A DNA stretch of 64,000 nucleotides from Bryum argenteum (lineage: Eukaryota; Streptophyta; Bryopsida; Bryales; Bryaceae). The notes beneath the pieces were generated by a model. The model was not told the origin of the DNA, searched no databases, and saw nothing but the letters and a program-made list of their open reading frames with translations. Below are positions 5,539 through 62,549 of the stretch, one piece after another (positions within the stretch are counted from its first letter, which is position 1; every line of letters begins with the position of its first letter). The DNA is taken from contig CM073330.1 in assembly GCA_037043015.1 (NCBI GenBank), positions 3,001,263 through 3,065,262 on the forward strand. Reading direction: 5' to 3'. The translations under genes were made by a program, and so were the position numbers.

Positions 5539-8500
5539 TCAACTAGTTGCTGCAGATTTTGGCTTCTTGCTCCGGGTTCTCCAATTGTCCTGCCAGAATC
5601 AAACAAAGACTCTCAGTCATTTGTTCTTTCCTTAATGAGAATCGAGTGGAGGAGGTCTAAATGCAGCTTACCAAGGGCTCATCATCTTCTGTATTGCCCA
5701 CACCCTTTGCTTCCTCGGACTTCTCTTCCAAACTCTCCTTGGCACTTGCAGTTACTGAATCTTTGGACGTGGTTTTCTCCGCTTTACCTTGCTTCCCACC
5801 TGGAGCTGCATTTGATAAGAAAGACGATGGTGTCATACAAAGCCCGGCGTGTGTGTCTCCAAGCACCAGGAAAGTAGTATTCCGACAAACGAAGTGAAGC
5901 AGCAACTATTAACGTGACTGAGCGGCATTACCTTTTGTAGGAGTAGTTTTTTGTTTCTTCGCTTCAGGTTCAGCCTCTACCTCGTCGAACTCAAACTCTT
6001 CGTTCGCTGACTTTTCTTTTGATTTGGCTGCTTTCGGAGATTTCACGGCATCCTTGGGTTTGGGTCCTGGCTTAGCTCCTGACTTAACTGGCTTGACTTC
6101 TTTTCTATAAAACAAGACCGCCACTAATTGGATCAGTAGAAGAACTACCTTCAACTTTGGGACCTGAAAGTGGAAATGCACCAGCGACTGGTAACAACAT
6201 ATTTCAGTGCTATGTTGGTACTATGATATTACAGGAGTTAAGGAATTCCGAGAGTGAGGAAATTTACGAGGTATCAGGTGTTTTGGCTGCCTCGTCTTGA
6301 TGTGCTGGTGGGGTCCTCGCAGTCACCTTCAATTTCTTCGGCTCCGGACTGACAAGAGAAATTTATCCTTGGTGATTGTCAATGGGCGGATCTTTTCAGT
6401 GATCGCATGTTAAATCACAGCGTTAAATACAACTATTGCTTCCACGAAAGATTCCACTATTCCACTACCAACATAAAATGAAAAATCCTATACAAGCATC
6501 GAAAAGATGAGACGTACTATTTCGTCCCAGAGAGCGTTGCTGGGGGAGTAGCAGTCGGAGTCTGCAAGGACAATCAAGCCTGAATGTTAAAATGATAACT
6601 ACTGCAAAAAGCTTACAACATGCTTTAACAACTACTGCAGAACAGTTCAACAACAAAATGAAGTATTCTATTCTTAAATGAAGAACTTAAGGGTCCAATT
6701 CCTACCTTCTCCTTCTTCGCAGAGGTCTTGCCTTGTTTGCCAATCAACTCCCACCGTTCTTTCGCCAGGTTGAGAATTTCTTCTTCCCCATCGTGATACA
6801 AGATCTAGCAAAAGGACTCCACTAGTTAAAGGAAGATCAAGGCTCCAGCTAGTTGGAGTAAATTTGAAAATGTACAATGCCCCAAGACTGTATACTGGAA
6901 ATAAGAGTCATAAACGACAAATCACAAAACAAACGCAATGACATGAAGTTGCTTAGAGCTTGTTTTACCTTGTGCTTTTTCTTCTTAGCATCATAGTGCA
7001 GAACTTCACCTTTGTAAAACCTGTCAGAGTGAGTTTCGTCAGACATGGAGACAACGAAAATCAACAAGTTGAACACAGCACAAGAAGAAAGTCTAGAGAA
7101 CATAAACATTAAGTACATAATCCTCCTTAACCATGTCTACTCGCAAGATACTCACTGTTTATCCAAAGGCCACCAAACTTTGATGCCGAAACCAACAATA
7201 GACTCGTCAGCACCTCGTTCGCCTTCAGCCTTCCAAGTAGGACTACCACTCTGCACAAAGAATGCAATTAATGTCAAGATACGTAGGTAAGAGCTGCACA
7301 AATGCTGGAAAAAATGGACGGTCTCAGGGCATGACTAGTCACAACTGAAATATACTCGAGAAGATCAAAAGTGGCAATGACATAATGAGTACCGACTTTT
7401 CTGCCAACAAAATAACCACAGAAGGGACCTCAAGGTTCTCACCTTTTCGTTAGGGGTTCCTTTCTTGGCCGATTTTTCCAGAGTCCCCACCTGCAATCCC
7501 ATTGGTTTTAATTGCAAAGCTGAACATACTGATCCACACGCCAATTACTTAGAAGGAAATGCATTTGACAGAAGCCTTTGAATGACGTCAGGACGAAATG
7601 TACCTTCTTTTTCTGTCCACTTTTCTCCTCCTCGTCAGTTTTAGGTTTAGCAGGGCGGCCCCGTTTCTTGCCAGTGGATTCATTGGTGGATCGTGGCTCA
7701 CTAGAGACTGGCTTTCCTTTCTTGGCTGAGATAGTGGGTGTAGTATCCGAAGACGGTCCTGCCAGATCATCCCCACTGACTGCTGCATCTGAATCCTTCC
7801 TGCCCGAGCCCTTAGGTCGACCACGTTTGCGCTTCGAAGGAGTATTCTCATCCAACTCCTCTTCAGGTTCTTTCTCCAATTTTCCTGCTTTTTTAGCAGG
7901 CTCGTTCTTGTCGACTGACTTCCTACCACCACGTGAAGGACCCTTTATTATGACTCCTCCAGTTCCGGTGGATCCAGCACCTCTAGCTGGTTTGTCAGTT
8001 TCAACTTTTCCTTTCTTCGGCGTGGGCTCGGTGTGCTCCACCTCCGCTTCTGTGTCTGACACAGCATCTCCGTTGTCGACCCGTTTCCCTCGTTTGCGGT
8101 TCCGAGGGCTAGCAGGCTACAAGGGGAAAAAATGCTTTCAGTGAGAAAATCAATCAAATGTACAGCATGAAGTGTTTCCCACCGAAGATTAAAGGCTGTA
8201 CCTCAAGAAAACATCAGACTCTTCATCGAGAACTGCTCCCTTAACAAACTATGCTACATGAGACACGTACGAACAGAACGATGTTTAGAATATACTCAGT
8301 AAGTTACCTGGCCAGATTTTGAAGTTCCAACTTTAAATTTTGCCAACACGTCCTTGTCGGTAAAGCAAGGCGGCAGATGGCTGCCATCCACCTGCAAGAA
8401 TTCGACTTTTAGGCCAGATATATGATACTGGATCACATAGAAACAAATCACTTTTGTGATCTGGAGAGATTTGATTAGGCAGATATCCAAAGTCAAATAA

Positions 8501-11500
8501 TTTACTGATTGCAATAAACGACTACTTGCCTTTGGAGATTCTTCTGGCACTGATTTCTTCTCCTCAGTTTTGTCTTCCCCACCAACTGCAGCAGCTGCTT
8601 CACCTGATTCAGGACCTTTGGATGCGGTTTCGTTCGATTTAGAGACTGAATTCGGGGCTTCTGATGCCACGGGAGTGTCACTTTCAGCCGCCTTATCTTC
8701 ATTCGGTTTCGAAGCCATAGATTCGTCTGACTCATGTGCCTTGGAAACTTCCGGCTCAGTTGTATTGTTTTCATTGGATTCCGTCTCCATGGGTTCATCG
8801 GTCTTGGAATTGTTTGCCTCAGCTGCATTGTGTTCATTTGCCTCCTGGGCTTTAGATTCAGTCGTATCAGCAGCCTTCGAATTATTAGTTTCAGCCTCCT
8901 TAGATTCAGGAGCACTTGATTCAGTTGCCTTTGGTTCAGGAACCTCCTTAGGCGCAGAGGCCTTCACTTCAGCTGTCTTTGGATCACCATTCCTAGATGG
9001 GGCTGTCTTCGCTTCAGTAGGCTTTATTTCGGGTACCTTGTACACGGAGGCTGGAAGTGGAATAACACCTGGATACGACTCGACAAGCTTCTTCTTTTGT
9101 TGCGCAATGTCCTTCGTGATCATTATAGCAATGTCACAAATTGCGTATAAAGTCTGAAAATAATCGACAAAGCATCGCTGTTAGTGATTCCAACCACACA
9201 AATCAGCAATGCTCAAAGACCAGTACCTACACCGTAAATTCAAGCACTTATAAATCACAGCTTACTCTGTGTGGCACCCAAATTACGTAAATTACAAAGA
9301 GACGCTTAAGAAGCTTAGACACCGGTGAAAAGCCTCTGCGGCGTGACAAGAGTAACTACAAACCTCAGTCTTAGTCTTGTCGACAGCATTTGTACATCCT
9401 TTGATAGTACGCAAAATTGCAAGGATCAAAGGCAGATTGTCGCCATCCTTTCCAGGCTCACTCTTTCCCTCTGCGTCTTGATAGATGAGTGCCCTTAAAA
9501 AGAACAACAACTCCCTGCCATTTAAGTACCAAACAACACAATGAGTGCTACACACTGTGATGGCCAATTCTCTCATCTAAGACAAAAGCGTCGGGTTTGC
9601 CTGAAAATACCAAAGACGTTTTTGGAGAGATGAAATCCATAAACAATATTAAATGCTTAATCACTGTAGTCTTTAACACATACAACCCACAGTAACAGCA
9701 CTGAATGAATCAGAAAGACAGCTCTTAAAGCAACCAAATCTGAAAAAAAAAGTACCTGTAGAATGGTTTATAGGCTGATGGCTCTGGCTGAAGGCCTCCG
9801 GAAACTACTGGATAGTTGGGATGGTGAGCCAACACATGCACGAGATACACGAGAGCATATTCCGGGTGCAGTGTAATCGTTGCCCTCTCTGATTGCCCGG
9901 TCACTGTTTTGTAAGCTTCTTTACGATAGTCTTCTACAAAATCGACCATAAAGCGTCTAGCCTGCATGGTCATAAAATACAAGAGCATCACATAATTCAT
10001 TCAAAGCACATAGCAACGAACTACCGCCGGATGATGACACCCAGAGAGAAATACAAATTGTTACTACTCACCAACTAGATCAAAGCCAAAACTAATTACG
10101 CAAGCATGCTGGCGGTTGAGCAGAACAAAAGCAAGACTTTACCTCCAGAGCATTCTCTTTCACAGTATCCACTGCACAAAGAGCGTATGCACTGGCATAC
10201 TTTAAATTAAGTGTCCGATCCTTCAAATAGTGGTGAATTTTCCTTAAAAGTGCACGTCGGACATGCGCGGCTTGATCCTGCAGGGACAAAACTTGACGCG
10301 TAAGTATCCGTTCTGATTCTAATCTTTAGATCAGGGCGAACTCATCAGCTAGTGCTCAGTAATTACATTTCCTCTAATTCACATCGCACACATGTGAAAG
10401 ATAATGGATGTTTGGAGTAATAAAGTAAACTGCCGAATTAAAAGTAGTTGCCTGACCGCATCTGAACTAGTCCTAAAGCAAAACGAAACAAACCTGCACT
10501 GTCATGACCACCATGTGAAAAACGTCAATAGGAATCTGACTATCCCAGCGCCGAGCCAATCTCAATACACCCTTAGAAGCTGCCAATCGCAGATGGGCTT
10601 TATCTGCGTCACTGAATGAAAGAAAAGATAAATTTAGATAAAAATCTTAAATATTAAAGAGGGAACATCTCTACGTATCTGAAGTGTCCCTACAATAGAA
10701 TGTAGCTGACCTTGTTTTCATATCATCAGCTATTTCTCCGCAAGCAAGAATCTTCACAAGAACTTTGAGAAGCCCTGGAAGCCTTGTACGTTGGTGTGCA
10801 TTCATTTTGGGAAGGAAACTCTTCACCAAGGCTTTGAGCGCATAGATCTGCATACTCGTCAAGTTTGAGTAAAGTCAAAACCACAAAAGAATAGAATCCG
10901 CATCAAGGTCACAAAAACGGTCCAGAATTTAAATTACACGATAGCGATGCTCACTTTTAGAAGCACATGATCACTTGGAGTATCACTGTCAGCAACAAAT
11001 TCAGTAACCTCCTGCAAAAACTCCACAGATTCGGTCATAAATATAGTCTGACCGTAGTTATTGAAGCTCGACAAAGAATTTATTGAAACTATTAGAAGTA
11101 ACTCTCCAGAATCAAAGGGGATACTTCATAGCAGGTAATAAAATAGTTGCTACGAAAATGCAAACCTTTCATTTATTTGAAAAGAAACTCATTACTCAGT
11201 GATATTCTTACCTGTGGACCTGGTCGTCTAAGAACATTCCGAACAACAAACTTGATGATGTCGTCCTCTCTGGTTTCGAAGATAGGCATTGCATTTTGTG
11301 CAATACAGCCCAAAGATTGCAAAACTGTAGCAAGATGCGTGTTGTCTTCCAGTTTATCCACCAGCCTCTGTCACATGCAAAAAGAGCACCAGGAGTTGTC
11401 CGACAAAGTAAATTCCAGGTACACTGCTATACTTGCCAGTCAGTTCTTATCACAAAATTTAAATAATCAAATGACTAGAAGGATACACAGCATACCCCGT

Positions 11501-45442: not shown

Positions 45443-47030
45443 TATACCATCTATCATTGTTCTTTTCAGCTAAATGTAGCCGATTGTACTGTATGGTATA
45501 AGGCAGAACTTTCCTTATCAGGTGTGGAAAACACCTGGCAAAAACGTCATTGTTTTGGCTCTGTATTACGTTGACCGGCTGTGTAAATGCACTCAGCACA
45601 CCAGTCTCTGTAACAACTCATTGCACAACAAACTCATGAAGGGGGAAGGTGGATCATAATGCAAGGACTTGGGACTATTTTCATGTAAACTGGGGCTGCA
45701 CGACATTCTGAAATGATGAATGTAGCATTTAGTGTACTTTTGCCAGTCCATTACCGTCATCTACTATTGGGAAGTGAAATCGAATTACAAGCTACCAGTG
45801 GCTCATTGTAAGCGCTTTGTTCTTTGTAACAACATAGATAGTGGCTCGGGTAAGAGCACCAATTATCGGACACTTAAGCCATCACCATACTTGGAGTGAT
45901 GACATGTGAAATTTACTATTTTTCAGTAATTAGTATGTAGAAGAGATGATTTTTCTACATTTTTATGGTATTTTTGAGCACATAGATAATCAAATGCAGA
46001 TTTTAGCATAACGTAAGATAGCCTTACGTATAACCAAACACTCCAACTATGTATGCATGGGGTACATGAAAGGTCACCTAATCTAGGAAACAAGTGAGAA
46101 AATCTAAAGGAAATGGTTTGTCTCGTTAAAGGGTGCACCCAGATATAGATGCTTCTATCCTAGTAAGCTAATTCTTTTGCTATATGGCCATCGTTGTTTA
46201 CGCATGTTTTTTTAACTACTTATGTATAGAAGTTTGAGTAAGAAGTAGTGGTAAAATCAATGGATTTGAGTCATGAACATTACATTTGTTCTCCCTCATT
46301 CAATATCAAAATTGGGTGCCTTGGATGTCGTTGGTGTATTCAATAATTGCATGTACTTAGAAAATTTTAAACATATGAACAAGATCTACTCTTCATGTAA
46401 TGACTAAACATAAAGCAACTTGGATTCACTTGTAATGTTAAGAATCACATGCATGCTACTTGACTCAATGAAGCATCGGCGATACATATTTTTTTGGACA
46501 CATGTGAGGATAAAAGTATGTGAAAAGTATTTGACGATGGGAAATGAAGATAACTCCGGTGGAATGTGGAACAATATCATAGCGGATGACGAACTTCATC
46601 CATTCTACATTCATCTACACTCAGTCGTCTCGCTCCTCTGCAACAGTGACCTTCCCCTAGGGCAGGGCCAGAGAGAAAGAGAGAAAGAATGGTGGACAGG
46701 CACGCCCTCCACGGCACCCCGAACCTCATCGCCAATACGCACGCAATCCGATCATCATCATCCCCTTCGTCTTCTCACTCATCACGTGAATCCAGTAATC
46801 GAATCCAAATTTGACCACAAATCGAGGCAGAACTTTGGACTGACCCTTAAATTCCATACCAATCCATCCCGCTATGGAATCATCCCTGGATCCCGATCCC
46901 GAGCCATTTCTCTTCTCAGCAATTTCAGGAAATCATCTGTGGACGATTTCGAGCCTTTTCTCTCCTCAGCAATTGCAGGAGCAGTAGCTCAGTCGCAATT
47001 GGAGTTTGAGCAGCTCTGAGAGTTGCAGCG
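45443..47030. other. Upstream region of the aldehyde dehydrogenase gene
   Basis: AT-rich until about 46600, then GC-richer and probably the promoter and leader. A 200-codon open frame at 46420-47019 resembles nothing known and runs into the leader. Just before the start codon a block with tttctct(t/c)ctcagcaatt and caggag is duplicated (about 46907-46930 and 46958-46983). Confidence 0.45.
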
Positions 47031-49014
47031 ATGGCGATGGCCATGGCCAGAGTGGCCAGGCAAGTAGCAGGCCGGCGCTCTTTCAAGGTAGAGCGCTCGT
47101 CAATGTTCGAGGTAGTGAACCCGGCCACCGGCAAAGTGATGGGAGAGCTTCCCGAGGAAGGAAATGCTGAAGTTGTCGCGAAATTCGAAGCCCTAGTAGC
47201 AGGCCAGAAGCGATGGCGGACAGTGCCCGTAGCCGAGCGACGCGCAATGCTGGAGCGTTTCAATGAGCTACTTCGTCTCAATATGCCGGCGCTTGCCAAA
47301 ACCCTGACCATGGAGATGGGAAAGCCAATTGCGCAGGCGAAGAACGAAGTTCGCGCTACCGTCGATCGAGTTCGGTTCTACCTTGAGAATTACGAGAAGG
47401 TTCTTAAAGAGAGCTCCGTCTTAGAAACCAGCATTTTAAAAGAGAAAGTGATCTATGAGCCTCTTGGAGTCGTGGCGAACATCTCCGCTTGGAATTATCC
47501 GTATTTCGTTTCTACGAATGTCTTCGCCGCTGCTCTTTTAACAGGAAACGCCGTCCTCTATAAACCATCCGAGCACGCCACTTTAACAGGATTCGAAATC
47601 ACAAGGTACTCACTCTCTCCTCTCTCGATTCCTTTTCTCTCTTCTCTTCTTCCGCCATTGAGTTTGCCTTGTGTGTGCCAGATTGCTGTATGAGGCGGGA
47701 GTTCCGAACAATGTCTTTGCGATGACGACGGGCAGGGGCGAGACAGGAGCAGCAGTGGCTTCATTGAAAGGGCTTGGAGGCTTGTTTTTCACAGGCTCAT
47801 ACAAAACAGGTCAACAGATAGCGAAGCAAAGTGCGCCGAATCTTGTGAAATTGCAATTGGAACTCGGCGGGAAGGATCCAGTGTATGTAAGAGCGGATGT
47901 ACCGAACATTGCAGCTGCTGCTGCCTCCATTGCCGATGGCGCTTTTTACAATTGTGGCCAGAGTTGCTGTAGTGTTGAACGGGTTTATGTTGACAAGAGG
48001 ATATACAACGAGTTTCTGGATGCTTTTGTGAAGAATATCATGTCTTATAAGGTTGGTGATCCTTTGAAGTCGGAGACTTACATTGGCCCTGTTGCGAGGC
48101 AACCTCACTTGCCTTACCTTGCTGCTCAGGTTAGTTATTCTCTCTCTCCTTTTACACTTTTGGATGATTCTAGAACATCTGTGTTTTGAGGGTTCAGGTC
48201 AAGCTTTTGACGACATTTTTCACCAGTAGCAATTTGGCAACTGGATACATGTGACAAGTGTGATCATGCTTTCGGGTTTCTCAAAGCAAGCAACATGTTG
48301 ATACGATTCTAGAGCAGAAGATCTTCCTATGTTGTGAGGGTTTAGGTCAAGGTTGATCACACCTTCCACCAGTTATTGTAGTAGCAATTTGGTGGGAATG
48401 GCAATTGCAACTGGATACATGGATAGGAGCAAATGCAAAACTTGATTCCAGTCTCCGTATAGACAAGCAACATGCTCAAATGATTCTAGAGTATAATATC
48501 AAACTTGACTACACCTTCCACCAGTTGTTACATTATCAAATTGGAACTAAATCATGGGGCCAAAATGGGGGTCCAGGTGCAGGATGCGGTAAGCAAAGGA
48601 GCGCGAGCAACATCCCACACAGGATTAGAGAGCAACCAAGGAGGCTTCTTCTTTCCTCCAACGGTATTGTCAGAGGTGAACCACAGCATGGACGTCATGA
48701 AGGACGAGTCGTTTGGGCCATTGATAGGAATTCAAGCAGTGGAGAACGATGCGCAAGCGTTATCGTTGATGAATGACACGTCGTATGGCTTGACAGCCAG
48801 TGTGTATTGCAAGAACAGCCAGGATGCGGAGAATATCCTCCGGGAGTTGGAGGTCGGCACTGGCTACTGGAATTGCTGTGACCGTGTTTCGCCTCGCTTG
48901 CCATGGTCTGGCCGTAAAGGTTCAGGACTTGGCGTTACTCTTGGTATGGACGGTCTTCGGTCCTTTGTTCAGCCTAAAGGTATCCTCCTCCAAAGCCCTT
49001 CCAACAAGGAATGA
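47031..49014 (+). CDS. Aldehyde dehydrogenase superfamily protein (NAD(P)-dependent)
   Basis: Oxidises an aldehyde to its acid with NAD(P). Three exons (47031-47605, 47682-48129, 48577-49014) join to 486 aa, the usual ALDH length. Landmarks are NPATGKVMGELP near the N-terminus, EMGKPIAQAKNEV, the nucleotide-site run SAWNYPYFVSTNVFAAALL, and FFTGSYKTGQQIA. The general base is Glu in LQLELGGKDP (about 252) and the catalytic Cys is in NCGQSCCSVERVYV (about 287). ESFGPLIGI and the C-terminal RVSPRLPWSGRKGSGLG follow. All catalytic residues are kept. The Arg-rich start MAMAMARVARQVAGRRSF could be an organelle-targeting peptide. The C-terminal CDRVSPRLPWSG signature recalls bacterial and lower-plant ALDHs rather than common angiosperm BADH or SSADH, so I leave family and substrate open. 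Confidence 0.88.
48190..48560. repeat. Tandem duplication inside intron 2 of the aldehyde dehydrogenase gene
   Basis: Blocks in the order tcaccag, tagcaatttgg, caactggatacatg, caagcaacatg and gattctagag occur twice (about 48215-48315 and 48370-48495). The intron has grown by a local duplication of roughly 150 bp. Confidence 0.6.
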
Positions 49015-52035: not shown

Positions 52036-55000
52036 ATGATGGTGTCCAGATCGGAGCTTGTTGTGCTGCTGGCCATTCTGGTTAGTTTGATCATATTACT
52101 CTGTCAGGGAATGATATTATAGGGATTGGATTTTCCGGGGAGACACGAGTATATTATGAACTATACTAGCTTTCAATATCATCTTTCTTTGTAGTAAGAT
52201 GATATTTTTCTTTGAGAGAGAAAAGTAACTTTGAATACCACATTAAGCTACCTCTTGATGGATGAAGTCCATGAATAACTCCTCCGTGCGAGCTTCTAAC
52301 AATGTAGATTATATTTTTATATTTTTTCAAACAATCATGAGGATCCTAGTGACATCAAACTGCTTGGATCCTTGATGTTGAGCTCAAGCACACATGTCAT
52401 AAAAATTAAAAGATGTGACAAACCTTGCAGATGTGACAAATCTTGATTTCATGAATTTTTCAGAATAGATTTACAGAAGTGTATCATTTAGGTTCAGTGT
52501 GGTCTCATTAACAGAATTCCTATTCATTTGTCAGACAAAATTTAGATAAGATGTACATTTGATATATATAGACGTCTTAGATGCACATCTCATCTAAATA
52601 GAAATGAATAGAAATTTTGTCTAATAAGACAACCCTATTCAGGTTGTAGTAAGAGTGAATCAAAATCTGGTCTTTCAATCCAAGAACTATAGTTCCTTCG
52701 GAATGAACTTGTACTAGTAGTCCTTGAGAACAAACTACTTGTTTCGATTCTGCAAGAGTTCCAATACGAGAAAACATTTACTGTTTTGGTCAATGTCATT
52801 TTCATTTAGTTTGCAACTGGAAGCCATTGATGCTTATTTGCTATTATGGTGATGCAGGCCATGGCAATGGTATTCACAGAAGCAGCTGGAAGGCCCTGGG
52901 GTGATACCCCACTTGAAGGAGACGACGACCACGAAGAAGAGGCAGTGACGATTCCATCGTTCTTACATGAGTACGAGTCTCCGTTGGACGCCGACCAGAT
53001 CAACGAATATGCAGCTTCCATTGACGATCATACTCTTGGCGAGCACATTGCAGACTTTTGCCGCGATGCTAAATTGGAGTGCAATTCTGACATTTCCATT
53101 GACGACCTCCGCATGGGTGATGATGGCGATGATGTCTCAAATGCTGCTGATGGCCTTGCCTTGGAATTTGGTGCACAAGACAATTTGGTGAAGGGCACAG
53201 ATATTGTTTTGCCGGATGACCTTCATGACATATCAAGTTCCAGCCCCAAGTTTTTACCCAGGTTCCTCGCCGAGAAGATGCCCTTGTCAAGGTACTGTCA
53301 AAACTTATAACTTATATCACCATTATTGTGATTGTGAAATACATTGAGAATCTGTGTAGTCTGATTTGAAAATGTGGTACAGAAAGTGCTAGTATTTTGA
53401 GTCTTATTTTTGTCAAAATTATCATCATAAAAATTATTGATATGGTTGGTCAATTTCAACGAAAATAAGGTTTATCTAGTCATAAGAATATCATGCTTAT
53501 TAGGATCTAGAGATAATTCATGATATGTTCTCTCAGAGCTTATTGCAATGGTGTTTTATTAACAATTTAAATACCTCATTACACAATAGTACATTAAATT
53601 GAAACTCCTCACATACTTAATTTTGGTGTAAATTGTCTAGATTTAGTTAATGGTGGCATTCACTCATCTGATTTTCTAGCTCTGGTGGGTTTAATTGTGA
53701 TTTTTTTTTCTCTTAAGTAGGTAGATGCAATGGGATTTTTTAAGCTTGAGTTGTAGTGTTTGATTGCATGTTAGAAGATACTATTTGAATCTAGTATTAC
53801 CTAATATTGAACATGTATACGAATTCAGAACTGTACTCTAAAGTTGTTATTCAATGATGTAGTGTCTAGCCGATTAGATCATACCTTGAATCAAGACTGA
53901 GTCAATTGTTCTGAGAACATGCTTTCCGTATCACAGTGAAAAGATTCAGGAGCTCCTTGACATTTTCCACATTCTGTACAACTCCAACCTCGCAAACATG
54001 ATGTTCCGCACTATCAGTCGCTGTGAGTTTGTGAAAGAAGAGTCGAGCAAAGAGAGTGAAGTGATCGTAGAGAAAGAAATCAAAGAGGAAAGTGGAAAAG
54101 ACAAGGAAGTGGAAGGCAAGGAAGTTCACTATAAAGAAAAAGAGAGTACAGAGAAAGTAATTGAGGTAAATGGCAAGAAGGAGGTTGATGAGAAGCAAAT
54201 CAAAGAGAAGGATGTCAAGAAGAAGGAAAGCAAAGGAAAGGACATTGAAAAGAAGGAATACAAAGAGAAAGATGTTGAAGTGAAGGAAATCAAAGAGAAG
54301 GATGTAGAGAAGAAGGAAGTTAAAAAGAAGGATGTGGATAAGAAGGAGTACAGAGATAAAGATGTCGAGAAGAAGGAGATCAAAGAGAAGGATGTTGAAA
54401 AGAAGGAATACAAAGATAAAGATGTTGAGAAGAAGAATTTCAAAGAGAAGGATTTGGATAAGAAGGAATATAAAGATAAAGATGTAGAAAAGAAGGAATA
54501 CAAAGAGAATGATGTTGAAGAGAAGGAAATCAAAGAGAAGGATGTAGAGAAGAAGGAAGTCAAAAAGAAGGATGTGGATAAGAAGGAATACAAAGATAAA
54601 GATGTCGAGAAGAAGGAAATTAAAGATAAAGATGTAGAGAAGAAAGAAGTCAAAGAGAAGGATGTTGAGAAGAAGGAATATAAAGAAGAAGATGTGGAAA
54701 AGAAGGAGCTCAAAGATAAAGATGTAGAGAAGAAGAAAGTCAAAGAGAAGGATGTAGAGAAGAAGGAATATAAAGAAAAAGATGTGGAAAAGAAAGAGTT
54801 CAAAGATAAAGATGTAGAGAAGAAGGAAATAAAAAACAAGGATGTGGAGAAGAAGGAATATAAAGAGAAAGATGTTGAAGAGAAAGATGTTGAAGAGAAA
54901 GAAATCAAAGAGAAGGATGTTGAAGGGAAAGAAATCATAGAGAAGAATGTCGAGAAGAAGGAAACTAAAGAGAAGGACATTGAAGAGAAGGAGGTCAAAG

Positions 55001-56956
55001 AACATGATGTAAAGAAGAAGGATTATAAAGAGAAAGATGTGGAGAAGAAGGAATTCAAAGTTGAAGATTTAGAGAAGAAGGAAGTCAAAGAGAAGGATGT
55101 GGAGAAGAAGGAAGTCAAAGAGAAGGATGTGGAAAAGAAGGAAGTCAAAGAGAAGAATGTCAAGAAGAAGGAAACCAAAGTGAAAAATGTGGAGGAGAAG
55201 GAACTCAATGAGAAGGATGTTGAGGAGAAGGAATTCAAAGAGAAAGATGTTGAGAAGAAAGAGTTTCACACTAAAGAAAAGGAACTTGAAGGTAAAGAAT
55301 TTGGTCGGATTAAAGATAGAGAGCTAAAAGAGAAAGGAAAGGAAAGCAAGGAAGAAGGGAGTAAAGGGTCTAACGTTAAGGAGAGAGAATTCAAAGAGGA
55401 GAAGTTAATCAAGGGAGAAATTAAAAATGTAAACCTTGAAAGGAGTGATAAGAAAACCAAAGAGAAGGAGAAGGAGGAACTTTTAGAGGAGAAAGAGCTG
55501 AAAAAGAAGGAGGAAATGAAGAGAAAGAAAAAAGAGGAAGCAAAGAAAAAAGAGAAGGGATTGAAGGAAAAGGAGAATGAGGTAAAGAAGAAGAAAGAGG
55601 AGGTGAAGAAAAAAGAGAAGGAGCTAAAGGAAAAAGATAAAGAGGTAAAGATGAAAAGAGAGGAGGTGAACAAAAAAGGAAAGGAGGTGAAGAAAAAGGA
55701 GAAGGAGACAAAAGAAAAGAAGAAAAATATAAAGGTAAAAGAGAAAGAGGTGAAAAAGAAGGAGGAGGAGGTGAAAGAAAAGGAAAAAGAGGTAAAGAAG
55801 AAGAAAGAGGAGGTGAAAAAAGAGAAGGAGCTAAAGGAAAAAGAGAAAGAGGTAAAGAAGAAGAGAGAGGAGGTGAACAAAAAAGGAAAGGAGGTGAAGA
55901 AAAAGGAGAAGGAGAGGAAAGAGAAGGAGGGAAATATAAAGAAAAAAGAGAAAGAGGTGAAGAAGAAGGAGGAGGTGAAAGAAAAGGAAAAAGAGGTAAA
56001 GAAGAAGAAAGATGCGGTGAAAAAAGAGAAAGAGGTGAAGAAAAAGGAGCAAGAGATGAAAAGAAAGGTAAAAGATGTGAAAGAAAAGGAAAAAGAGGTA
56101 AAGAAGAAGAAAGAGGAGGAGGTGAAAAAAAAGAAGGAGGTGAAAAAAGAGGAAAAAGATGTGAAAGAAAAAGGGAAAGAGGTGAGAAAGACGAAGGAGG
56201 TGAAGGAAGAGGAGAAGGATGTAAAAGGAAAGGCAAGTATCAAAAGTGTACAAAAAAGAAGTGATAAAACAAATATTAAAGAGAATGAAATTGAATACAA
56301 CAAGAAGGATACATTTAAAGATGAGAATGTCCAAAAGAAGAAGATTGAGTACGATGAAGAGAAAGAAATGAAGGAAAAAGACATTTATAAAACGGAGGAG
56401 AAATCGAGCAAAGTAACACGCAAGTGTGTGACTTCTTTGGAGGGAATGACAAGCTTTATAAAGAAAAGCTTGCCTAAGGAGAAACACATCAAGGCTCTTG
56501 AAAGATCAAGTTCCATCAAGCTTGGTAATCACTATTACAAAATACTTTTCAAAGTATTATGCTCATTGTCTTGATTAATATGCAATGTTGTGGATATTCA
56601 TTCTTATGTTTATTCAATATTCTAACAAAGATATGTTGGCAGGTGAAAAAGAGGAGAACAAGAAGATAAAGTGGAAGTTGTTGGGTGTGAAGAAATATGA
56701 GAAAGCAGTGATATGCAAAAACAACATCTTCTTGTTTGCTATCTTCGAATGTCACGACATTAGTAAAACAAAAGGCAAGTACATCTATTACATTGAGTTG
56801 GAAGGCTCAAATGGCATTCATCGCAAAGAAATCCTCTCTTGTGATGAAGAAAAAAAAGCTGATGTGCATCGTAAAACCAAACTTGGATCCAAAGAACAGG
56901 TATCTTGTTTTTGGATAACCAATTCATTAGTATGGGCACCTGATGCTTTAGATTGA
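52036..56956 (+). CDS. BURP-domain secreted protein with about 800-residue Lys/Glu-rich repeat insertion inside the BURP domain
   Basis: Four exons (52036-52080, 52858-53291, 53937-56524, 56643-56956) join in frame to 1126 aa. Residues 1-25 look like a signal peptide (VVLLAIL, then AMAMVFTEAAG). Residues 30-145 are acidic and variable. The BURP domain starts at about 147 (FLPRFLAEKMPLS, then LLDIFHILYNSNLANMMFRT and the conserved Cys-Glu at 189-190). It is then interrupted by residues 191-989, almost purely Lys, Glu, Asp and Val. It resumes at KCVTSLEGM (990), LLGVKKYEKAVICKNNIF, ECH and YIYYIELEGSNG, and ends VSCFWITNSLVW. BURP proteins are plant-specific secreted or wall-associated proteins. 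The CH motifs are degraded: only the second of the four CH pairs survives. Reading through a possible donor at 56901 keeps an ending similar to the family's CHFLP/VVW end. Expression of the full protein is unproven. Confidence 0.82.
52499..52633. mobile_element. MITE family D, copy 2, in intron 1 of the BURP gene
   Basis: The right end tttgtctaataagacaac is the inverted match of the family start gttgtcttatcgaacaaa seen at 51457. The left end here is a decayed form (gtggtctcattaacaga). The interior has a nested inverted pair (tagataagatgtacat against atgcacatctcatcta). It lies wholly within the 777 bp first intron. Confidence 0.65.
54184..55260 (+). repeat. 30-bp coding repeat array (decapeptide KEKDVEKKEx)
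   Basis: About 35 units of 30 bp (core aaagagaaggatgt(t/a)gaga) encode decapeptides such as KEKDVEKKEY or KDKDVEKKEI. The tenth residue varies (Tyr, Ile, Val, Phe, Leu). Blocks of several units recur about 240 bp apart (near 54295 and 54535), showing a higher-order repeat. No stop or frame slip occurs. The array is the first half of the insert in the BURP domain. Confidence 0.9.
55440..56230 (+). repeat. Lys/Glu-rich coding array with about 7/14-residue period
   Basis: This is the second half of the BURP insert. Heptad-like words such as KEKEVKKKEE and KEEVNKKGKEVKKKEKE repeat, and long blocks recur (about 55640-55720 and 55845-55925). Composition is almost only Lys and Glu with Val at spaced positions, fitting a long charged single alpha-helix or coiled coil. 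The frame stays open throughout. Confidence 0.85.
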
Positions 56957-57445: not shown

Positions 57446-57460
57446 GGTATTACTTTCTTT

Positions 57461-57670
57461 TCTTCTTCTTCTTCTTCTTCTTCTTCTTCTTCTTCTTCTT
57501 CTTCTTCTTCTTCTTCTTCTTCTTCTTCTTCTTCTTCTTCTTCTTCTTCTTCTTCTTCTTCTTCTTCTTCTTCTTCTTCTTCTTCTTCTTCTTCTTCTTC
57601 TTCTTCTTCTTCTTCTTCTTCTTCTTCTTCTTCTTCTTCTTCTTCTTCTTCTTCTTCTTCTTCTTCTTCT

Positions 57671-57712
<42 letters not shown>
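57461..57712. repeat. TTC microsatellite (about 70 copies) followed by 40-nt poly-T
   Basis: About 210 bp of almost perfect TTC repeats (GAA on the minus strand) run straight into an unbroken run of 40 T. The whole 250 bp is one polypyrimidine strand. Apparent poly-Phe and poly-Arg or Glu frames across it are artefacts. Confidence 0.95.
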
Positions 57713-57713
<1 letters not shown>

Positions 57714-59565
57714 TTTCCTGCACATGTAGAAAAGGTAGTAAGGCATGATCTTACCATTTGGATTTTCAAACCCGTAAATTTTTATATGCCTTTTAATTGT
57801 TGAAAACGGGCCTTTGTATATGAATTTCAGCATACCTCCATGTGAAGACTAAAGCATATCTTCGAGTTTTCGAGATTGTGTAAGGGTAAAATTGCATAGA
57901 GATATTCCTTACTCACCTAGGAACAAAAATTGAAGATCAACATGTCGAATTTCCTTCCAAGTATGGTTTGTTTGTCCCCCAAAACCTTACTTCGCCATTT
58001 TACAGCATGGGAAAAAACTTTTTCGAACGTTACCATCTCACAATTGGGGTCTTGGGGAGGAATTTGAATCTAAGTTATGATATACATATTCATGTACAAG
58101 TTGGCTCCCTCGAGAGGGGGAAGTAGTATTGTTCTAATTTCCCCTTGTCCGGTGGCCATCGGGATATTAGCATTACGAACGAACACTTCATTCACGCCGG
58201 CTCCTTAGAAAGGACCGGAGTTTCTATCTATCTACAAGTTGGCTAGTACATCATGTGGTTACATATCTCAAAGCTTGTCAATATTCAAAAATTACACCTT
58301 GCATAAAAAGAGTGCGGTTTTGAGGGTGCTTGACTGTTTCGAGGCCGCTGCTCACCTTACGAGTATAAACAACTTCCCCTACGCACAGTAGTCGAAACCA
58401 AAATTCATGCAATGCCTCACAAGAGCCAATAAAATTCTCAATGAAACCACTATACACTTTGTCCTGACCTACCATATACACCATTTCCGACGAAAGCACA
58501 TTCCCTGAACCAATCCAACATGCTCCACAAGAAAGAAAAAAATTCATGAAACATCACTCTCAAGTAATAAAAAACAGTTGTTTTTAAAGTGCCTCTATCA
58601 TACCAGCTGGCCCATACTGGCCCCGCAATCAAATACCGACAAAGCCAATAGTCTACCCGTGGCCTACAGTAGTAGGTGGTCATGCCGGTTCTTTCTTTCT
58701 TCGCATCAACTAAACAATAATGATCGCACAAAACAATATTAATCCCTTGCCTACCCACAAGACAGTGCTCCGATCGGTGTTGGGCGGTGGTTGAAAAGCT
58801 GGCTAGGGAACTACACACAGTTGTTTCTTCGAAGGAAACTTGTGTCGTCAAAGTCGTCGATCAATCAATGAGCCTTTCGGTGTAGCACTGCAACACCTGA
58901 TGATCGAAAACACAGCTGGAGAGGTTAGTCAACTTGCTGATTCCCGTTCGCGGAGGCTACCGTTCAGGTGAACAGGAGTTTCATTACCATTTCATTCCCT
59001 CCGACCGTCTGGTTTCTACTTTCTTAGTTGTAGTTATTTCCACAGGATTTGAATTAGAGCTCCCTCTGAACACACTGTTTTTTCATTTTGTTTCTTTAGT
59101 CGAAAGTTCGAGATACAGATCGGGTTGTCAGGGGCAGCTTTCGATCCTCGAACAGTTGCTGCCTTGTAAAAGTTTAGACCTCGTTGAGTTTTCCAGTGTA
59201 GTGTTCTCCACAGTCACACCGACTTGAGCCTGGAATTCTTAACCTAGAGCTTCCTCTAAATTCATGCTCATACTGTTCTCTAAACGTTCTTTAGTCAGCC
59301 TGGAAAAAGACGTCGACTTCACCAGAAATTCGAAGTACTAAAGTAGATCGTGTTGCAACAGGTCGCTCTCGATCGTTCTAGCTGATTCAGATTTGGTTTT
59401 CAGCAACGATGTGACTGTTTAAACGGCTCCGGGGATGCGGAACTCTCTGTCGGTAGAAGACACGGACTAGGTTGTGCATGATCTGATTCGTAATTTGTGG
59501 GGGCACGATAACCTGCTTAGGTAGTACCAGGCTCTGAATAGTAACCGGTGCACTGTAAAGAAAGG

Positions 59566-61447
59566 ATGCGAGAAAGATTCATGGTTGAGTTGAGGTGGAG
59601 CAGGTTTCGGAGGTGGTGGCCATGTTTCCTCGGACCAGAAGACAAAGATCTAGATTCGACAGTGGACAGGAGGAGCACACATGATTTTGCAGCGTCAGAG
59701 GTTGGGCAGAAACAAAACAGTAGGAGTACTAGTACGAGTAGCAGTGTACAGGGAGGATACAATGAGTCGACTAGCCAGCACGAGGAGTATCGAAGACAAC
59801 AACCGAGGCGGGGTGCAGGAGCGGAGCCGTTCACGATGGCGGAGCTAGCGCGTGCGACTTCCAATTTCTCCCCGCACAACAAAATCGGCCAAGGTGGGTT
59901 TGGCATGGTGTACAGAGGTCGCCTTAAAGATGGCCGCGTTGTGGCTATCAAGCGTGGGAAGAAGGATACGTATGAGCAGCGCTTGTCTGTCGAGTTTCGG
60001 ACCGAAGTTGAAATGCTCTCTCAGGTACTTTCTCCTTGCCCCTCTCTCTCTCTCTCTCTTTTAGGGTTAGGGTTAAGCGAAGTGGGAGTAATTTCAGATG
60101 TCTGTGCATGCACAATAAGGGAACTTTTTCAATGATGCCTTAAATTTCAGCATGGGAAATTTGTAGTGAAGTTTTTAGTGCATGGGGATAGTATGGTAGG
60201 TGACTTGAAACCCACACAACTTCACTCTCAATAGATCCATCCAAGAAGGAGGTATATTATAGCTTCCACCTTCGTATTTCGATGTATTGAGGGTGTACCT
60301 TTTAGAATGATTGGTTGTGGGTACACTCATAAGATTCACTTCCAAAAAATATAACTAAATGAAGTTTTTTTCAAAATTGATAATGACATCTAGTACGTAC
60401 TTTGCACACTTTACAAAATTAACTCACTTGGCCACTCTCCAATGAGCAAAAATTTGAGTGGTTTCCAAGTCACTTAATATAAACCATTTTTGGACTTCTT
60501 TACATATTGTTATCAAATGGATTAAATGTAGATGTATAAGTTATTCTAAAGTAGTGACCTAAAACAAGGCCCTATGAGAACTTGGATGATTGAATTGTGG
60601 AGCTATGATGTACGTAGGTATGAATGAGCCTCCTTCGCTATTATGCTTAGTAGTGCTCCATTTTCAAGCACTCAATCTTTCCCTTTGAATTTGAAATGTT
60701 TCGGCTTGCGCATCAGATAGGGGAAGTTTCTGAAAGAATGACTCAGGCTCATAAAAAAGCCAAGGTTTCCTGATGTCACTTGATTGTGGCGTGTACTTTT
60801 GCTGAATGAAGGAAGGTTCAGCTTGAACAAGAATAGGTTCAATCCGATGTGTTTTTAATTCTGAAACTAAAACTTCACAATGTAAATAATTAGGTCATCA
60901 AGCCTCCCAATTTTATTAAGAGTTTCCAATCTTGTTTTGTAACATCAATCACACCATGAATTTTATCATATTATGCATGTACTCATCGTACTTGCCTTCA
61001 CGTTGTGCAGGTGGATCATTTAAACCTAGGAAAACTCATTGGTTACGTGGAAGAGAAAAATGAGCGCATCCTTGTTGTAGAGTACGTCCCAAATGGCAAC
61101 TTGGGTGAGCATTTGGAAGGAGTATACGGGAAAGTCCTCGACATGAGCACGCGGCTTGACATTGCCATTGATGTTGCGCATGCATTGACCTACCTCCATC
61201 TCTATGCAGATAGGCCCATCATACATCGAGATATCAAGTCTTCAAACATTCTTCTTACCGACACTTATCGTGCAAAAGTGTCGGATTTCGGATTCTCACG
61301 TGTGGGTCCTTCCACGGAAGTTGGTGCCACTCACGTTTCTACACAAGTAAAGGGAACAGCAGGTCAGTGATTTCAACTCCTCGTGCCTTTAACTTCAAAG
61401 AACTCACTTACCTTAAAGAACAATTTCACAAAGTTGATGTAAGAAAT

Positions 61448-61492
<45 letters not shown>

Positions 61493-62549
61493 CCCACTGA
61501 AAACCATCCTTTACATGGTCGAGATATAAACCAAGTTAGTGTAACATCCATAATTCTCCGATTCTTGAATGTAGATTGAAGCGTTGAACATCAGGAATAC
61601 ATCAACCATGAATTTGTTATTGCCTTCTTTTATGAGCCAATCCTGTCACCAGTCCTGATGCTTCATCCAGATTCCTCTTCTTTTAACAAGAATGGCATTA
61701 CCATTTCCATATGTAGAATCAGACATTTCTTCGTTTATTAAACCGAAGGCCAAGCTAGAAAACATGGGCAATAAAAGTGCTTTACATACTCATAACATGA
61801 TTCTGGTCCTGTTCCCTCATTTCAACATTTACAGTCATTTCTAAACCATTGTTTAGCTACCCAAATTAATGTATAAGAACCTAGAGTACGTTCACATTCA
61901 CCGAACACTTTCTTCAGAGTAGTCACATCGGTACAGTAACCGTTTGCTTGTACACCTCGTAACAACCATGTTGTGAGCCACTGAAAGATAGCACATTGCA
62001 TGTGTTGAACCCCAAGTAGAGGTGGGTAAAGACTCAACGGTATCCTTTATCATGTTCTTTCTAAAGAGTTTGTAGACAGTTTTGTTTTCAAGTTGAAAAT
62101 GAAATGAGAATTGCTGTGCAGGATACTTGGATCCGGAGTACCTAAACACGTACCAACTGAACACGAAGAGCGACGTATACTCGTTCGGCATTCTGTTAGT
62201 GGAGATACTGACAGGGCGGCGGCCAATAGAGCTGAGGAGGCGGAGCGAGGAGAGGGTGACAGTGCGGTGGGCGTTTCGGAAGTTCGTGGAGGGCAAAGTG
62301 GAGCAGGTGATGGACCCGAAGCTGGAGAGGTCGCCTGCCGCATTGAGCATCATCGACCGAGTGGCGGAGCTTGCGTTTGCATGCTCCGCTCCCACCAAAG
62401 GCGACCGACCCAGCATGAAGAAAGCGGCGGAGGTGCTCTGGGAGATTCGGAAAGACTATCTGGCTATGCTTCAGCAGCAGCAGCAGCAGGTCTCCAAGGC
62501 CGAAAGATCCGAAAGCACTCGGACCGATACTTCGTCTGCAACAGGATAG
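59566..62549 (+). CDS. Receptor-like cytoplasmic kinase, CRCK (calmodulin-binding) type
   Basis: A Ser/Thr kinase without signal peptide or membrane segment, expected to signal in the cytoplasm or at the plasma membrane. Three exons (59566-60024, 61011-61362, 62122-62549) give 412 aa. The N-terminal 85 residues are basic, then Ser/Thr/Gln-rich. The kinase domain begins FTMAELARATSNFS. Key parts are the Gly loop IGQGGFGMVYRG (107-118), the VAIKR Lys at 129, HRDIKSSN with Asp at 227, DFG at 245-247, GTAG then YLDPEY, and SDVYSFGILLVEILTGRRP. All catalytic residues are present (RD type). The stretch YEQRLSVEFRTEVEMLSQ, then EEKNERILVVEYVPNGNL, is close to Arabidopsis CRCK proteins. The short tail is Gln-rich (LQQQQQQ region). 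Calmodulin binding is inferred from the subfamily. Introns are 986 and 759 bp. Confidence 0.92.
61449..61492 (+). repeat. 44-nt poly-T in intron 2 of the kinase gene
   Basis: An unbroken T run lies about 85 bp after the donor site. No target duplication or element body was recognised beside it. Confidence 0.95.

Follow-up and report, generated by a model that had tools for sequence, protein, structure and literature searches.

A moss gene whose BURP domain is interrupted by a long lysine- and glutamate-rich repeat insert

Introduction

BURP proteins form a plant-specific, stress-linked family. The available sections of the papers on this family describe a surface cysteine pair of the BURP fold with CX11-12C spacing, named CC-S (PMC12874468), and two conserved BURP cysteines at a well-conserved distance (PMC6102523). 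For the BURP peptide cyclase ArbB2, the accessible text reports that the protein is inactive when His 1, 2 or 4 is changed to Ala or Gln and is not expressed when His 3 is changed to Ala (PMC12186524). Further BURP literature was drawn on in the form of excerpts (PMC8672867, PMC9121072, PMC11253845). The gene described here lies in a 64,000-nucleotide stretch of the moss Bryum argenteum (assembly GCA_037043015.1, contig CM073330.1, positions 3,001,263 to 3,065,262), which is called the window below and in whose coordinates all positions are given. A preliminary description, made from the letters of the window, had proposed a BURP domain split by a Lys/Glu (K/E) repeat. In the gene as modelled here, the two halves of a BURP domain are separated by 797 residues placed within the family's conserved cysteine pair. 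We assign a probability of about 0.57 to the reading that the gene encodes a secreted BURP protein that is a scaffold rather than an enzyme and bears a giant charged loop, grown in place from ~11 to ~800 residues.

Gene model and BURP domain

Joining four GT-AG exons on the forward strand gives a 1125-codon open frame free of internal stops. Exon 1 (52039..52080) has the start codon and the first 14 residues of a signal-peptide-like stretch and ends at a GT donor; its 42 nt equal the length of exon 1 in a paralog on C7. Exon 2 (52858..53291) carries the remainder of that stretch, the subfamily N region and the first part of the BURP domain (from ~53176), with introns positioned as in the C7 paralog. 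Exon 3 (53937..56524), a single open frame, contains the end of the BURP N half, the insert and the start of the C half, and exon 4 (56643..56956) contains BURP C-half sequence (Pfam BURP positions 79-214) with the motifs CK, CH, CD and CF and the stop codon. The predicted protein thus runs from a signal-peptide-like start through the BURP N half and the K/E-rich insert to the BURP C half, with an estimated mass of ~140 kDa for the intact single chain. The four-exon single frame of the preliminary description stood, whereas its range of 53937..56956 left out the first two exons and with them the signal-peptide-like N terminus and the larger share of the BURP N half. The signal peptide that it had named is present as a hydrophobic, signal-peptide-like N terminus, which aligns with the N terminus of a Ceratodon homologue (P0001).

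Membership in the family was assessed with profiles. For the whole-domain match, and for the C7 paralog identity below, the core without the insert was used. This core matched Pfam BURP (PF03181) with E 2.7e-25 and 89.7 bits (cut-off 27). Each half was also matched alone, the N half with E 2.7e-10 and 40.6 bits (profile positions 5-76 on residues 121-192) and the C half with E 1.1e-12 and 48.5 bits (positions 79-214). The earlier claims that BURP sequence flanks the insert on both sides and that the insertion falls inside the domain therefore held, since the two matches place the insert between profile positions 76 and 79.

The gene departs from two defining features of the family, the CX11-12C spacing and the four-CH motif. 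The FF dipeptide that opens the BURP domain is absent as well, with LEFGAQ in its place; by alignment FF is also missing in the homologues P0001-P0003 and is present in P0007. By profile, introns and paralogs, the gene is BURP-derived and is a variant, neither a canonical BURP protein nor a cyclase. At the gene level, the interrupted-BURP architecture is real.

The cysteine-pair loop in homologues and paralogs

The insertion point was located by translation read-out and by alignment to homologues and paralogs. Cys188 (codon 54022..54024, forward strand) is the first cysteine of the pair, and Cys989 (codon 56425..56427, forward strand), within KCVTSLEGM, is the second. The K/E-rich insert, residues 190-986, was read from the translation of 54028..56418 on the same strand. 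Both cysteines are kept, and the pair would read C188-X800-C989 if the insert is translated. All six BURP cysteines are retained in the gene. Homologues read CEAQEQGK(D/E)(T/I)RKC or CEEKPIKGEEKRC at this place, which is CX11C. The spacing, together with an alignment of P0007 with 8SY2 over the stretch, identifies the C188/C989 pair with CC-S at the level of sequence rather than of 8SY2 coordinates. By these alignments, the K/E stretch enters the BURP fold at its CX11-12C cysteine-pair loop.

To what extent the short loop is the rule was judged from the genome (258.8 Mb, 25 contigs), in which 32 BURP matches were found, eight of them with stops inside. Eight of the 27 loci outside C6 and C7 (L027, L029-L035) could not be read as an open frame across the motifs and were dropped, leaving 19 readable loci, including L026, which is partial, and L028, which has a stop elsewhere in its match. 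Loop lengths were taken from the alignment, except for the C6 paralog, where a pattern search was used. CX11C was found in all 19 loci and in the C7 paralog, a count of 20/20 in which most copies form one tandem clade, 17 of the 19 being near-alike sequences on C8 and C10, and thus represent few independent lineages. The same spacing was found in all five outside homologues that span the loop (P0001-P0004 and P0007), in agreement with the "about ten residues" first suggested for known BURPs. The short-loop copies form clusters on C8 at 9.7-10.96 Mb and on C10 at 13.4-14.3 Mb (L003-L008, L017-L034), some with stops in the match. Short, stop-bearing fragments resembling part of the gene's C half were also seen at C1:35293988-35294191 and C4:15278691-15278804.

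The C7 paralog (L014) has three introns at the same positions and none at the insertion point. Its exons measure 42, 470, 218 and 317 nt, vs. 42, 434, 2588 and 314 nt in this gene, and exon 3 holds nearly all of the length difference. The C6 paralog (L015) has a CX18C loop; its frame continues through the position of intron 2. P0004 and P0005 are exon readings, each on a 3918-base contig of another assembly, and appear to have the same exon layout. Among 22 genome matches of the gene's protein, no second near-identical copy was seen. An exon-2 tree gave this gene a long branch (1.47), and no orthology is claimed for P0006.

Coding evidence and the splicing alternative

The coding frame of the insert has no stop in the 361 codons of its 10-residue repeat part or in the 248 codons of its heptad part. 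The strand is 84% purine here and certain other frames are also nearly open (0 to 2 stops); consequently, openness alone is weak evidence of coding. The variation between repeat units was more telling. Across 34 ten-codon units, pN/pS was 0.24 in the coding frame vs. 0.85 and 2.02 in the shifted frames, and across 21 heptads it was 0.21 vs. 0.38 and 2.31, contrasts that are indicative only and are no independent-sample test, the units being related by descent. Codon 2 of the unit begins with GT (Val) in 30/34 units, and its third base is T, G, A or C in 10, 10, 9 and 5 units, respectively. Third-position entropy exceeded that of the other positions in the coding frame only (one-sided p of 0.018, 0.42 and 0.99 for the three phases). 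This silent-site-biased variation, confined to the coding frame, indicates coding more strongly than frame openness does. The silent differences between units are also large (pS 0.62), and the array is therefore not a recent burst.

The same DNA could instead be a retained or alternative intron (an exitron), in which case the working protein would be a short-loop BURP and the K/E stretch would be translated only sometimes. The scanned flanks of the insert offer 52 in-frame, stop-free GT-AG combinations. Both loop cysteines survive in 30 of these, at spacings of 2 to 42 residues, and in two of the 30 (54031->56398 and 54042->56409) the spacing is exactly 11. By our own reckoning, chance predicts one or two products at 11 among 30 that span 2-42 residues. 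The flanks also contain a donor-like GTGAGT at 54023, but this donor yields no product with both cysteines. The candidate acceptors are purine-rich, with a pyrimidine share of 0.07-0.60 vs. 0.40-0.73 in the three genuine acceptors, and the one reaching 0.60 would delete CVTSLE. These acceptors, the intronless C7 site and the silent-site bias of the units in the coding frame disfavour an ordinary intron, and they leave the exitron unlikely.

Composition and predicted structure of the insert

The insert is 37% K and 26% E, with 72% charged residues, well-mixed charges and a net charge per residue of +0.05. It has no Cys, Pro, Trp or N-glycosylation sequon. Two repeat parts were recognized on the forward strand, one at ~54176..55260, built of 10-residue DVEKKE(Y/I/V/F/L)KEK units in which every fifth residue is hydrophobic, and the other, at ~55487..56233, with a heptad-like K/E pattern. 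The 10-residue part is very regular. Its 35 successive spacings comprise 34 of 10 residues and one of 5, hydrophobic residues are 5 apart in 62 of 72 spacings, and the 5-residue periodicity is 0.92.

Such strict spacing is also what a pentapeptide-repeat beta-helix would show, and pentapeptide-repeat models of NCBIfam did match the insert, below threshold (29.2 bits vs. a cut-off of 125; 21.7 vs. 260). A beta-helix of this kind has a small residue at i-2, a position that is Lys in 65/73 cases here, and the insert had no Pfam match at E 1e-3. We consider this fold exceedingly improbable, and the NCBIfam matches were taken as effects of repeats and composition. Matches of the insert to PDB entries (IcmE/DotG, E 1.2e-5) were set aside in the same way. 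No Pfam family, LEA families included, matched the insert at E 1e-3, in a search that scores low-complexity sequence down, as profile searches do.

Charge patterning differs between the two parts. Opposite-charge pairs exceed those of shuffled sequences in the heptad part (z 3.7 at i+3 and 4.5 at i+4), which may form a charged, salt-bridged single helix. They are near the shuffles in the 10-residue part (z -0.3 and 1.7), where a 3.6-residue periodicity of 0.02 also means that there is no amphipathic helical face. This larger part may be a disordered polyampholyte. The "rod" first imagined for the segment is accordingly uncertain, the charge pattern favouring a helix in the heptad part and hardly at all in the larger 10-residue part; the gel-like state offered beside it is likewise conjecture.

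Origin of the insert

The codon pattern for KDVEKKE occurs 16 times in the 258.8 Mb genome, all 16 in this gene, and its control occurs 0 times. The heptad codon pattern occurs five times, three of them in this gene, with three occurrences of the reversed control. Copying of the insert from elsewhere in the genome was considered, and no donor was seen with the exact codon patterns. The insert probably arose in place, because the unit codon pattern turned up only in this gene, K and E already make up part of the native loop (EAQEQGKEIRK, EEKPIKGEEKR) and the loop of the C6 paralog is longer. A word search of the 64-kb window found the 10-nt direct repeat TCGAGCAAAG just twice, on the forward strand and in the same codon phase, near the left (54043..54052) and right (56404..56413) edges of the insert. 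Without the stretch between the two copies the loop would have 13 residues by our count, near the family's 11. When the two 80-nt edge pieces were shuffled by mononucleotide, 46/1000 shuffles shared a word of at least 10 nt, so TCGAGCAAAG gives no more than a clue to the insert's beginnings. The edge pieces also have a longer low-complexity word in common. Among 875 candidates of about 619-1969 aa, searched with the N half, no large homologue with the insert was found at E 0.01.

Copper site

The BURP domain family is defined in part by four Cys-His motifs, CHX10CHX25-27CHX25-26CH. The corresponding motifs here are CK, CH, CD and CF, with four of four Cys and one of four His. All four CH are present in 17 of the 19 readable copies, L023 and L024 having two and three of the four His, respectively, and the C7 and C6 paralogs keep three each. 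Given the loss of three of four His and the inactivity of the ArbB2 His mutants, it is very unlikely that the gene's protein is a peptide cyclase of the known copper-dependent type. The gene was also considered as a burpitide precursor, a reading that was rejected because the copper site is broken and the composition differs.

The protein might alternatively be cut within its lysine-rich loop, which would release K/E peptides and leave a two-chain BURP held by a C188-C989 disulfide. The loop is long, lysine-rich, probably exposed and placed between two cysteines, and the accessible text of PMC6102523 reports that the polygalacturonase beta-subunit BURP precursor is cut. The loop is, however, unlike the hydrophobic aromatic core peptides described in the available parts of the literature, and the cyclase site is broken. 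Such cleavage is quite improbable for this gene.

Neighbourhood of the gene

A (TTC)74 array (57455-57716, 99% matching), which runs into 44 T, lies roughly 500 nt past the stop codon. Aldehyde dehydrogenase exons (PF00171) were found at 47010-48186 and protein kinase exons (PF07714) at 60960-62546. An open frame on the reverse strand at 8299-9180 gave a sub-threshold match to the PDS5 C terminus (22.4 bits vs. a cut-off of 27).

Discussion

The scaffold reading would run as follows. The loop would have expanded as Lys/Glu codons multiplied in tandem within exon 3, and the protein would be secreted. Domains seldom tolerate inserts several times their own size. A BURP domain would still form from the two halves, since the insert would leave and re-enter at an exposed loop whose ends a disulfide can pin. 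The domain would no longer act as a copper peptide cyclase and would serve as a folded anchor. From it, a long, water-binding, nearly neutral polyampholyte, perhaps in part a charged helix, would project into the apoplast or cell wall. Its most likely use there would be in hydration, spacing or desiccation buffering.

Several points weigh against this reading, beyond the splice combinations, the descent of the repeat units and the few lineages behind the paralog count given above. The gene model and the insert are known here from genomic sequence alone. The oxidised C188/C989 pair is a predicted disulfide at the loop base. The solved BURP structure 8sy2 matched the gene's core alone with an E of only 0.18; with three homologues in a four-sequence profile, the core matched the solved structure with E 2.5e-06. 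The insert was not seen in a second species, in a search bounded by length, with exon-2-only entries (a 159-aa frame) outside it. Finally, the core is fast-evolving, with 43% identity to the C7 paralog, a pN of 0.38 and a saturated pS of 0.81, and a drifting gene is conceivable.

Drift leads to the possibility that the gene is decaying, its copper site lost and its repeat a neutral expansion in a dispensable copy. The loss of three His, an identity of only 43% with the C7 paralog and the broken BURP copies elsewhere in the genome (stops in 8/32 matches) would fit this. Against it stand 1125 codons with no internal stop or frameshift, usable splice sites, the six retained BURP cysteines, the silent-site bias between units and synonymous differences (pS 0.62) too large for a recent burst. 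On balance, decay seems distinctly unlikely. A more specific form of the scaffold reading is put forward only tentatively, at rather less than an even chance. The gene would encode a secreted BURP pseudo-cyclase whose disulfide-pinned surface loop is now a polyampholyte of 800 residues. This loop would predate the large silent differences that separate its units and would be maintained by selection, so that an enzyme fold would have become a display scaffold for an extracellular charged loop.

If the protein is made and folded, the cysteine-pair loop would be a permissive site of the BURP fold, and the gene would provide a natural BURP in which the scaffold persists and the copper chemistry is gone, so that structural roles could be told apart from catalytic ones. 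It would also add a moss extracellular charged repeat that may matter for surviving drying. Experiments could then follow the steps by which an enzyme became a scaffold, because the uninserted C7 paralog and the C6 paralog with its 18-residue loop survive in the same genome.

Comparison with known systems

No long insertion within a BURP domain was mentioned in the literature titles and abstract openings among the matches listed, with subscription papers largely outside them, and the preliminary description's claim of a new architecture stands within that scope. RD22-like, PG1beta-like and burpitide-precursor BURPs share tandem repeats with this gene. In the available portions of PMC6102523 and PMC8672867, however, their repeats are N-terminal to the domain and not within it, as the preliminary description had stated.

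The nearest named protein is from Ceratodon. The Ceratodon purpureus protein KC19_5G118000 (P0001) and the C7 paralog resemble the predicted protein in EAAGRP after the signal-peptide-like stretch, the subfamily N region, the RKCV context and the C half, and the C7 paralog additionally in its three intron positions and its identity of 43% without the insert. They differ in their CX11C loop and in the His that are kept, three of four (CR, CH, CH, CH) vs. one of four here. The C6 paralog belongs to the same subfamily (39% identity over residues 41-266) and has an already lengthened loop and one altered CH; it differs in having no repeat array and three of four His (CH, CH, CR, CH). The BURP peptide cyclases AhyBURP (PDB 8SY2) and ArbB2 are alike in the BURP domain by profile and, for a moss homologue, by model. 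According to the accessible text of PMC12874468 and PMC12186524, they have CX11-12C and four copper-binding His, whereas the Bryum gene has CX800C and one His.

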